From positions 1 through 64,000 of the forward strand of contig JAPOVK010000037.1 of NCBI GenBank assembly GCA_026708185.1: a DNA stretch of 64,000 nucleotides. Direction: 5' to 3'. Position 1 is the stretch's first letter. Every line of letters begins with the position of its first letter. The notes beneath the pieces are model-generated. The model was not told the origin of the DNA and did no database searches. It saw only the letters and a program-made list of their open reading frames with translations. The DNA comes from Gammaproteobacteria bacterium (GTDB lineage: Bacteria; Pseudomonadota; Gammaproteobacteria; Pseudomonadales; Azotimanducaceae). A program made the translations under genes and the position numbers. Positions 1 to 52,630 of this stretch are shown in pieces.

Positions 1-104
1 CCCCTCGCAAGGAAGAGCCCTCAGCCGGGGAGCGCGAGGGGCTTGCCCCTCGCAAGGAAGAGCCCTCAGCCGGGGAGCGCGAGGGGGCTACCCCTCGCAA
101 AGAA
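1..104 (+). repeat. 45-bp coding repeat, two full copies plus a partial, inside the serine hydrolase
   Basis: Full units lie at 15-59 and 60-104; bases 1-14 are the end of an earlier unit, so the array continues past the left edge. Each unit contains a near-palindrome, GCGAGGGGC then two bases then GCCCCTCGC in the best copies, and translates in the host frame to EPSAGEREG(L/A)(A/T)PRKE. The same unit in the same frame forms the tail of xerC at 51434-51703. There are no spacers, so it is a tandem repeat and not CRISPR. Confidence 0.95.
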
Positions 105-539
105 GAACTCGAGGCGCCTTGGGGGCACCGGCGCGATCCGGACAGCGGGAACTGGGTCCCAGACCGGCAAGACAACGCAGCGGCGCTTGGCCCGGCCGGA
201 ACGGTGCACATCACCATCGAGGACTGGGCCCGATTCTTCAGCCTTTGGCTTGCCCGTGAACCGCCAGCCATCGTCGACCGCGAGACGCTGGACAGACTGG
301 TCACGCCGGTAGCCGGGCGTTACGCCGCAGGCTGGCTGGTCGTGCGACGACTCTGGGCGCGGGGTCGGGCGATCACGCACGACGGCAGCAACGGGTCCTG
401 GTACACGAAACTGTGGGTCGCGCCGGCAGTTGGCCGTGCCTACGTCGTGGCCGCAAACTCGGTCGAACCGGATGTCCGTCGAACGTTCGCGTTGCTCGAC
501 GGAATCGTCTCGGGTTTGATGTTCCGGGGCTTGAAATAG
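1..539 (+). CDS. Serine hydrolase (beta-lactamase/class C family), C-terminal part, cut by window edge
   Basis: The frame is open at the left edge, so the start lies outside the window; codons begin at base 3 and the stop TAG is at 537-539. From about base 108 the translation is typical of periplasmic beta-lactamase-fold hydrolases: a PWGHRRD motif, then ALGPAGTVHITIEDWARF, then THDGSNGSWYTKLWVAP, whose H-x-G triad is the counterpart of the KTG box. The protein ends with a hydrophobic stretch and GLK. Bases 1-104 are not normal family sequence but copies of a 15-residue repeat (EPSAGEREGLAPRKE) in the same frame. The repeat therefore lies just before the conserved PWGH segment. The SxxK serine is expected upstream and is not visible. 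Substrate unknown. Family assignment is firm; activity of the interrupted protein is uncertain. Confidence 0.8.
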   Translation, partial: PRKEEPSAGEREGLAPRKEEPSAGEREGATPRKEELEAPWGHRRDPDSGNWVPDRQDNAAALGPAGTVHITIEDWARFFSLWLAREPPAIVDRETLDRLVTPVAGRYAAGWLVVRRLWARGRAITHDGSNGSWYTKLWVAPAVGRAYVVAANSVEPDVRRTFALLDGIVSGLMFRGLK

Positions 540-50699: not shown

Positions 50700-51410
50700 C
50701 TAAGATCGCGTGCTCAAGCCTTGCTCCGACAGCCGGGCCACGGCCGACGGCACGTCCTCAAGCCGGGTCACGGTGGCAGTGGCGGGAGGACTCTCGTCGG
50801 CACAGGCGAGGTTGACCCAGATGGTGGCCATGCCGACCGCGGCGGCGCCTTGGACGTCGTCTACGGCATGGTCGCCGACATGCACGGCTTCGGCGGGTTC
50901 TACGCCCGCGTGGGCCATGGCACGCTCGAACATCGCGGGGTCGGGTTTCTTGGCACCCACTTCTGCCGCGCAGTAGCCGAACGCGAAATAGCGGTCGAGG
51001 CCGAGACGCTCGAAGTTCGCATTGCCATTGGTCAGCGCGGCCAGCGTGTAGCTCTCGGCCAACTCGGCCAGGACATCGACGGCGGCGGGGAAGAACTGCA
51101 CCCGGTGGCGCCAGTCCATGAACTCGGCGAACGCGTCGGCGGCCAAGCGCGCCGCGCGCGCCGGGTTGTAGCCGCAATGTTCGACCGTTTCACGCATCAC
51201 GGTCTCGCGAAGTCGCGAGATGTCGTGGACGATGCGCGGATCCGCATCGGTGACGGACTTGGCTATCGCCCGGCGCGTATCCGCGGCGAGCTGGTTGTAC
51301 TCGGGCACGCGCCGATCGAGCCAATCGTTCAGGGCACTCTCCGCGCGCCGAATCACGGCGTCGACCGCCCACAGCGTGTTGTCCAGATCGAAGGTGACGA
51401 GGCGAATCAC
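50700..51410 (-). CDS. yigB: HAD-superfamily hydrolase, YigB-like
   Basis: A 236-residue HAD phosphatase starting at GTG (MIRLVTFDLDNTLWAVD). Motif I DLDNTLW, motif II ALTNGNANFERLGL, the motif III Lys in GAKKPDPAMF, and motif IV HVGDHAVDDV are all present. In E. coli YigB dephosphorylates FMN precursors, and the gene follows xerC, as here. GTG overlaps the xerC stop (GTGA). Confidence 0.9.
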   Translation of the reverse strand: MIRLVTFDLDNTLWAVDAVIRRAESALNDWLDRRVPEYNQLAADTRRAIAKSVTDADPRIVHDISRLRETVMRETVEHCGYNPARAARLAADAFAEFMDWRHRVQFFPAAVDVLAELAESYTLAALTNGNANFERLGLDRYFAFGYCAAEVGAKKPDPAMFERAMAHAGVEPAEAVHVGDHAVDDVQGAAAVGMATIWVNLACADESPPATATVTRLEDVPSAVARLSEQGLSTRS

Positions 51411-52630
51411 GCCGCGCCTTCCCCACCCTGCGCTTTCGTGCGAGGCGCGGGCCCCTCGCGCTCCCCGGCTGAGGGCTCTTTCATGCGAGGGGCGGGCCCC
51501 TCGCGCTCCCCCGCTGAGGGCTCTTTCATGCGAGGGGCAGGCCCCTCGCGCTCCCCGGCTGAGGGCTCTTTCATGCGAGGGGCAGGCCCCTCGCGCTCCC
51601 CGGCTGAGGGCTCTTTCATGCGAGGGGCAGGCCCCTCGCGCTCCCCGGCTGAGGGCTCTTTCATGCGAGGGGCAGGCCCCTCGCGCTCCCCGGCTGAGGG
51701 CTCTACCGTCGTGCTTCCGGTTCGGGCGCGCGGGTGCGCGTCGTCGTAGACCTTGGCCAGATGCTGGAAGTCCAGGTGCGTGTAGATCTGTGTCGTCGAG
51801 ATGTTCGCGTGGCCGAGCAGTTCCTGGACGGCCCTCAAGTCGCCGCTGGACTCCAACAGGTGGCTCGCGAAACTGTGGCGCAGCATGTGGGGATGCAGGG
51901 CGTCGTTGCCGGACGTCGCTTGAGCGAGCCGCTTCAGGCGCAACTGCACGTTGCGCGCGGACAGACGCGTGCCTCGACGACCAGTGAACAACGGCTCGTC
52001 GCCGCGTACGGACTTCCGCGTGGCGAGCCAGGCCTCGAGCGCGAGCCGTGCGGCGCGCCCCACCGGGACGATCCTGACCTTCTGGCCCTTGCCGGTGACC
52101 GTCGCGAATCCGTTGGCCAGATCCAGGTCGCGGACGTCCATGCCGACTAGTTCGGACAGGCGGAGCCCCGAGCTGTAGAACAGCTCCGCCATGGCCCGGT
52201 CGCGGATCTCGATGGGGGTCGTGGCGGTGTTCGTGAACAAGGTTGCCGTCTGGTCGACGTCCAGGGTCTTCGGCAGTCGCGGGCGGAGTTTCGGCGCACG
52301 AACGCCGCTCGCGGGATTGGCGCCGACCTCGCCCCGTCCCACGAGGAATGCGAATAGACCGCGGACGCTCGACAGGTGCCGCGCGATGGACCGAGGCGAC
52401 AGACCTCGTGCGTGCAGGTGCGCGGCAAACCGGCGGATGTCCGCCGTGCCAACCGCGGCGCTCGGGGTTTCGCCGGTCTGTTCGGCGAATCGCTTCAGGT
52501 CGCGGGCGTAGGCGGCGATGGTGTTCGGCGACGAGCGGCGCTCCACGCGCAGGTGCTCGACGTAGCGATCAACGTCGACGAGGACGGTGCAGGCGCCGTG
52601 TTCGCGATGCGCGGTTCTGCGGCGCGGCAT
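51407..52630 (-). CDS. xerC: Tyrosine recombinase XerC with repeat tail
   Basis: A 407-residue tyrosine recombinase; normal XerC has about 300. The core is complete: catalytic Arg in SSGLRLSEL, HPHMLRHSFASHLLE (H-x-L-R-H), LGHANISTTQIYTHLD with nucleophile Y283, ending near AHPRA (residue about 303). It resolves chromosome dimers at dif with XerD. Residues 310-399 are six copies of EPSAGEREGPAPRMK. The tail follows the conserved C-terminal helix that contacts the partner recombinase, so it could affect the synapse. Start ATG 52630; the neighbours DUF484 and yigB are standard. Confidence 0.95.
   Translation of the reverse strand: MPRRRTAHREHGACTVLVDVDRYVEHLRVERRSSPNTIAAYARDLKRFAEQTGETPSAAVGTADIRRFAAHLHARGLSPRSIARHLSSVRGLFAFLVGRGEVGANPASGVRAPKLRPRLPKTLDVDQTATLFTNTATTPIEIRDRAMAELFYSSGLRLSELVGMDVRDLDLANGFATVTGKGQKVRIVPVGRAARLALEAWLATRKSVRGDEPLFTGRRGTRLSARNVQLRLKRLAQATSGNDALHPHMLRHSFASHLLESSGDLRAVQELLGHANISTTQIYTHLDFQHLAKVYDDAHPRARTGSTTVEPSAGEREGPAPRMKEPSAGEREGPAPRMKEPSAGEREGPAPRMKEPSAGEREGPAPRMKEPSAGEREGPAPRMKEPSAGEREGPAPRTKAQGGEGAA
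51434..51703 (-). repeat. Six tandem 45-bp coding units at the xerC 3' end
   Basis: Units lie at 51434-51478, 51479-51523, 51524-51568, 51569-51613, 51614-51658 and 51659-51703, all exactly 45 bp. Copies 3-5 are nearly identical. Each holds the palindrome GCGAGGGGC-NN-GCCCCTCGC and encodes 15 residues in the xerC frame. The same unit and frame occur at 1-104 in another gene. Confidence 0.97.

Follow-up and report, generated by a model that had tools for sequence, protein, structure and literature searches.

The 45-bp repeat with which the analysed stretch of DNA begins is probably a non-autonomous insertion element of two hairpins, recently active in one family of the Pseudomonadales, which inserts, amplifies in place and is then filtered by reading frame. 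The stretch, 64,000 nucleotides long and called the window in this work, corresponds to positions 1-64000 of contig C16 of genome G000, that is, it starts at a contig edge within an array of such units inside a serine hydrolase gene. A second array lies in the same window at the end of a xerC-type gene. The features on which the argument is built are the following.

1-104, plus strand: array of 45-bp units in the serine hydrolase gene (partial unit 1-14, full units 15-59 and 60-104)
3-539, plus strand: C-terminal part of the serine hydrolase, beta-lactamase fold (PF00144), in frame through the array; the N-terminal part is at the end of contig C65 (L184)
17-33, plus strand: first hairpin of the unit, imperfect, the same being expected in each unit (consensus-unit fold, position transferred by hand)
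34-53, plus strand: second hairpin of the unit, formed by the 8-bp stem GCGAGGGG/CCCCTCGC and a loop of 4 bases (sequence and consensus-unit folds)
51434-51703, minus strand: six 45-bp units in the C-terminal tail of xerC (270 bp, 90 codons), absent from the orthologue in the near relative G007
51407-52630, minus strand: xerC-type tyrosine recombinase gene with the array, its start assumed at 52630

Positions 1-106 form a tandem repeat with a period of 45 bp, 2.4 copies and 93% matches, and a 24-bp core, allowing up to three mismatches, is matched eight times in the window and not once in 100 shuffles; no Rfam family matches the window at its gathering score. As originally predicted, two full units and a 14-bp partial one are read in frame within the hydrolase, as EPSAGEREGLAPRKE and EPSAGEREGATPRKE, and are followed by PWGHRRD. 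The family assignments of both host genes were likewise correct: in a Pfam profile search both halves of the hydrolase match PF00144 and the xerC product matches PF00589 and PF02899. The xerC array is indeed read in the same frame and shares the core, with EPSAGEREGPAPRMK in five units and an ending in PRTK in one, but the linker residues differ and the peptide is thus not identical to that of the hydrolase, as had been thought.

The array could be extended to the left. The N-terminal half of the hydrolase lies at the end of contig C65, together with units of the same kind, and the final 55 bases of that contig are identical to the 55 with which C16 begins. Since the two halves align to a single continuous gene of G007 with nothing between them, the array lies within the hydrolase gene and comprises at least four units across C65 and C16, with the linkers ST, ST, LA and AT. 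A misassembled xerC array at the left edge, envisaged at the outset as a way in which the prediction could fail, is unsupported: the two arrays have different linkers, and in G007 the orthologous gene runs uninterrupted through the site. All eight hydrolase orthologues examined, that of G007 among them, are without the array (at the cut-off used, seven of the 16 genomes in the genus yielded no match), and the insertion is therefore derived in G000. The xerC genes of G000 and G007 differ by exactly 270 bp, and no array beside xerC is found among the matches listed for 14 of the 15 other genomes of the genus, in which the gene end is in view (in G001 the contig stops short). Both insertions are polarised as derived. 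The structure predicted for the G007 hydrolase from the eight orthologues is poor (mean pLDDT 47.5) and places the insertion point, after residue 215, in coil within a stretch below 50; solved homologues of the hydrolase amount to 43 distinct sequences, the best being 7mdc_A (E 2.2e-13).

The 45-bp unit family consists of double hairpins that occur singly or in head-to-tail arrays of at most six, with the consensus GAGCCCTCAGCSGGGGAGC-GCGAGGGG-NNTG-CCCCTCGC-ANGAAA. This consensus folds as two adjacent hairpins, mildly better than shuffled sequences (z from -0.85 to -1.79 for single units); hairpin stability is what composition predicts, with 10 to 39 of 200 single-unit shuffles folding equally well. 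In 27 isolated units the flanks to the left of GAG are unconserved and the right edge fades past CCCCTCGCA, the conservation of the first 27 bases being partly due to their use as the search pattern. The consensus before the stem is CCGGGGAGC, and a GT(A/G)G head (GTAG or GTGG) is not present. All 103 pairs of neighbouring units less than 250 bp apart are direct and none is inverted in the sampled G000 stretches, a subset of all copies made up of 56 stretches around the places listed. Terminal inverted repeats and a target-site duplication are the hallmark of MITEs; in the 45-bp unit the hairpins are internal, the right edge is variable and there is no clear target duplication. A sister unit has the same head as the 45-bp unit, carries an extra GC-rich arm and is spaced 66 bp apart in tandem (22 codons). 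Its pattern is matched 14 times in G000, 14 times in G007 and not at all in the other 56 of the 58 relatives searched, and tandems with the 66-bp spacing were located as follows.

L162:3890-4049, minus strand: sister unit tandem
L175:13820-13913, plus strand: sister unit tandem
L242:61-286, plus strand: sister unit tandem

The genome-wide search suggested with the original prediction yielded 236 copies of a 27-bp core in G000 (5.13 Mb, 65 contigs) at up to three mismatches, and none for the reversed control. The unit is present in 27 of 195 relatives with 1 to 236 matches each, namely in 15 of the 16 genomes of the genus and in 12 genomes from four other genera of the family; the sixteenth genome of the genus, G015, gave weak similarity hits only, and none of the 75 genomes representing 46 further families of the order gave a match. 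Three of the genomes with the unit are single contigs, G096 with 105 units, G110 with 41 and G125 with 40. The named carriers among the matches listed are mostly bins labelled Gammaproteobacteria or Pseudomonadales, together with Ca. Azophilus lithoversatilis. The source group of bacteria is known chiefly from sponges, for which we take the bin codes of the carriers to stand. One further unit was seen at L074:95-121 on a contig (GC 55%) of a Candidatus Binatota bin, representing either a transfer or a wrongly binned contig. Counted by hand, no fewer than 17 of the 130 contig ends in G000 fall within arrays (for example C16:85395-85445), so that some genes are split and the number of units is probably underestimated.

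Movement of the unit is documented by the comparison of G000 with G007, which are about 90% identical at the sites compared. Forty-five of 72 segments with G000 sites were used as baits and 40 were placed in G007; at most 40 candidates were scored, so the other five may have been missed. Among the 44 aligned sites, 28 are without the unit in G007 and 16 are occupied according to the automatic count, and 12 of the 16 occupied sites have a different number of units. Twenty-three of the 28 are clean empty sites, to which the hydrolase is added as the 24th; left out of the clean set were L133 (a unit remnant in G007), L141:4019 (a G007 unit with an indel), L162 (interval of -185), L164:8094 (interval of 1049) and L177:2464 (66 bp of other sequence). 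Measured against whole units, the interval in G007 is 0 at eight of the 23 clean sites, +2 to +6 at nine and -1 to -24 at six. The empty site begins with GA in seven of 20 cases, compared with a background of 7% (p=0.0003; limited to the 20 of 24 sites with at least 45 of 60 left-flank bases matching), a preference that loses strength (p=0.01) if 13% of in-frame codons are assumed to be GAN. A search for wider or longer resemblance between target and unit junction gave no signal in the 21 empty sites scored (p=0.26; intervals above 12 and L140 excluded). The aligned sites were picked because G000 has the unit, and apart from the polarised hydrolase and xerC most of them are two-genome comparisons, to be read as gain in G000 or precise loss in G007. 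With copies throughout the genome, 24 clean empty sites and two derived insertions, the mobility that had been put forward from the window is borne out, and the designation as a mobile palindromic element is well supported.

Once inserted, the units multiply locally. Of 34 pairs of adjacent linkers within arrays (those involving the last unit were left aside), 20 are identical, compared with seven of 1778 pairs between arrays. Unit numbers also differ at shared sites, and the two observations together indicate that the initial insertion is followed by local tandem amplification.

The effect of the reading frame can be separated into three components: length, openness and peptide. At in-gene sites, judged from G007, the net length change is a multiple of three in 19 of 20 cases versus 12 of 24 elsewhere (p=0.002), the sole exception, L141:4019, being a weak gene call. 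Spacing of units departs from a multiple of three in none of 17 internal and in 11 of 46 other arrays (p=0.027), a test that is partly circular because an internal call requires an open frame. The unit is open in four or five of the six frames; frame -0 (antisense) contains a stop. In the family as a whole, the 133 unique sites include 38 that are called gene-internal, with 23 in +0, eight in +1, five in +2 and two in -2 (one of the unique sites combines 13 arrays flanked by sister repeats, and L129:5488, tallied as +0, is the 66-bp sister unit). The idea that a single frame is kept therefore holds only insofar as +0 is the commonest; 15 of the 38 sites are in other frames, and much of the bias stems from codon composition. 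The words GA, GAG and GAGCC are frame-biased in the genes of G000, which raises the expected +0 share of open insertions to 0.37-0.57, and the count of 16:4 in G000 (14:4 before L164:3994 and the hydrolase were added by hand) is modestly above this expectation (16 of 20, p 1e-4 to 0.03). The +0 bias is thus largely what codon composition gives. Synonymous and other variation between units stand at 89:178 in coding +0 arrays and at 226:465 elsewhere (p=0.88; units with more than five mismatches and arrays with spacing not a multiple of three were dropped), and by this comparison of the synonymous fraction in coding and other units no selection on the +0 peptide is seen. What is maintained is thus an open frame and a length divisible by three, not the peptide.

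Arrays are depleted in genes. Nineteen of 61 testable G000 arrays are gene-internal, compared with 72.5% of bases called coding by a home-made codon model that uses sequence only (p=2e-11), a depletion that is somewhat overstated because the caller misses insertions near gene ends. Unbiased occurrence in noncoding DNA had been named beforehand as an observation that would count against a coding element, and it applies in part: 42 of the 61 arrays are not gene-internal, seven of these lying towards the C-terminal end of a gene. The host genes include those for Lon, RsmH, RlmN, ZipA, RodZ, trigger factor, a pseudouridine synthase and XerC. According to Pfam, arrays are situated between the lid and protease domains of Lon, between the S4 and catalytic domains of the pseudouridine synthase, between the two domains of RlmN and between HTH and RodZ_C; before the ZipA_C domain and upstream of the TPR part in a CycH-like protein; past the last domain in XerC and trigger factor; and within domains in RsmH, the N-domain of DsbD, PAPS reductase, a DUF58 protein and the hydrolase. 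Two nearby ankyrin-repeat proteins (L148:3366-5303 and L148:7503-9701) contain one unit each.

In the sequence of events that we propose, one or more units first turn up at dispersed sites, in many cases with the alteration or loss of a few host bases, as the empty sites show. Head-to-tail amplification in place follows, as is evident from local homogeneity and from copy numbers that differ at shared sites. The comparison of sites within genes and outside them shows that frame-breaking insertions are not kept, and the survivors in genes would be read through as hydrophilic stretches in linkers, loops and tails. The sharp left edge, the fading right edge and the lack of a clear target duplication suggest that dispersal may occur by directional, single-strand or primed copying from the fixed GAG end; no moving enzyme for the unit was found among the RAYT and Y1 genes examined. 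A bolder formulation, which we regard as speculative, would see in the unit a bacterial micro-element of a new class: a directional hairpin with one defined end, independent of any RAYT, that inserts units of 45 bases, grows head-to-tail arrays and has remodelled housekeeping enzymes since two near species split. Such an element could act as a standing generator of protein inserts, because the unit has 15 codons and the openness described above.

Copying and expansion by replication slippage and microhomology-driven template switching, with no transposition at all, is a serious possibility, albeit one that we hold to be somewhat less than even. The weak GA microhomology at the left edge, the small gains and losses of host bases at insertion sites and the strictly direct arrays would all fit. 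On the other hand, the sharp and constant left edge of single units is more than free template switching would be expected to give, no wider similarity at the junction was found, and a unit that in 195 genomes is confined to five genera of a single family suggests a particular agent. Another explanation is mobilisation in trans of a REP-type element by a REP-associated tyrosine transposase (RAYT, Y1/HUH), and the stem-loop with its GGGGAGC foot is like the Pseudomonas REPs in the excerpts of PMC2817692. G000 also encodes a RAYT-like protein (NF047646, E 1.1e-10, 41.5 bits, below the cut-off of 80). Unit and Y1 counts correlate over the 16 genomes of the genus (rho 0.58, p 0.018), and a gene of the L040 type co-occurs with the unit in the 195 genomes (both in seven, gene only in two, unit only in 20, neither in 166; p 1.4e-5), both figures being uncorrected for kinship. 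We nevertheless consider this route unlikely, and a RAYT transposase is not supported as the mover. No unit was detected near 19 Y1 loci or near 12 further ones in flanks of up to about 1.5 kb, where about two of the 19 would be expected by chance at the density of G000, so this counts against flanking only. The single-contig genomes G110 and G125 lack any Y1_Tnp match at E<=0.01 and G096, likewise a single contig, has sub-threshold matches only, whereas G016 has strong Y1 genes and no unit; moreover, the unit lacks the GTAG/GTGG head and inverted neighbouring pairs. The genomes G000, G007, G008 and G010 contain numerous copies and fragments of the RAYT-like Y1 gene itself, often at the ends of contigs (L040, L041, L265 and L280-L293 in the first two genomes), and the gene looks like a mobile element of its own. 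In G004 a different RAYT-like type adjoins a repeat translating as VGATLVVAR or GTGQARPLR (L251), possibly a second REP family of the genus.

Two further explanations were considered. A functional peptide module spread through its usefulness, be it as affinity tail, linker or sorting signal, would account for +0 being the commonest frame and its peptide the most hydrophilic of all frames, and for the many multi-unit arrays in linkers and tails. We deem it improbable: the synonymous fraction is equal in coding and other units, 15 of 38 gene-internal sites use other frames, and the hosts are unrelated and have orthologues that manage without an array. Even less credible, indeed barely conceivable, is an artefact of metagenome bin assembly. 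It is true that contig ends of G000 lie in arrays and that the window itself starts in one, but single-contig genomes carry the unit and arrays inside contigs have orthologous flanks on both sides. A two-hairpin insertion element that inserts, amplifies in place and is filtered by frame is therefore the explanation that we prefer.

Coding palindromes are best known from Rickettsia, where RPE-1 keeps one constant reading frame; we know of no agent that moves the RPEs. In the excerpts of the sources, Rickettsia palindromic elements (RPEs) and the WPEs of Wolbachia are palindromic repeats some of which lie in preexisting genes without loss of frame, the rickettsial RPEs measuring 100-150 bp and their insertions being largely common to orthologues (PMC3767692, PMC10969869). 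Comparison with the RPEs, proposed from the window, is apt insofar as the 45-bp unit is palindromic and enters unrelated genes without breaking the frame, as well as sequences outside genes. Neither length nor constancy of frame agrees: compared by description, the unit is 45 bp long, GC-rich, arranged in direct arrays and found in Pseudomonadales, with many insertions differing between two near species, and unlike RPE-1 it occupies +0 at 23 of 38 sites and other frames at 15. Intragenic GTAG/CGTC REPs are, in the part of the paper available, short palindromes mostly between genes and sometimes within them, with clusters coding for 43 to 82 residues in Thauera and R. conorii (PMC3733652). The unit is also a short palindrome mostly outside genes and in some cases within, but its consensus has by inspection no GTAG or CGTC tag, the sample contains no inverted pairs and the unit is not beside RAYT genes. 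RAYTs are described in the excerpts of PMC2817692 as always flanked by two inverted REPs; on that description stem-loop shape, high copy number and occurrence in gammaproteobacteria are shared, whereas inverted unit copies do not flank the Y1 loci (0/19 and 0/12). The paired inverted repeats of REPINs and BIMEs are absent as well, all sampled neighbours being direct. PARCELs, in the portion of PMC2996958 consulted, are tandem coding repeats of a 25-residue amphipathic motif with dyad symmetry and variable number, in ORFs lacking assigned functions; to that extent tandem coding units, dyad symmetry and variable number are common to both, but the units studied here have 15 hydrophilic residues and are inserted in known genes. 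The unit works like RPEs and intragenic REPs, yet it is neither by the features tested. The peptide word EPSAGER is absent from the literature searched, the matches listed for the unit's DNA word have unrelated titles, and no earlier description of the 45-bp repeat is among the matches listed in the literature on sponge symbionts with palindromic repeats, Azotimanducaceae and in-frame palindromic insertions, a search whose scope left out most subscription papers.

Arrays of this kind break short-read assemblies and split genes, which calls for caution with such genomes. Presence differs at more than half of the 44 sites chosen from G000, and insertion, tandem growth and frame filtering can therefore be traced site by site, for instance in lon, rlmN, zipA and xerC. 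How such repeats move and how proteins gain segments thus become directly testable in this family, in which ordinary housekeeping proteins would, as judged from their genes, carry additional repetitive segments.
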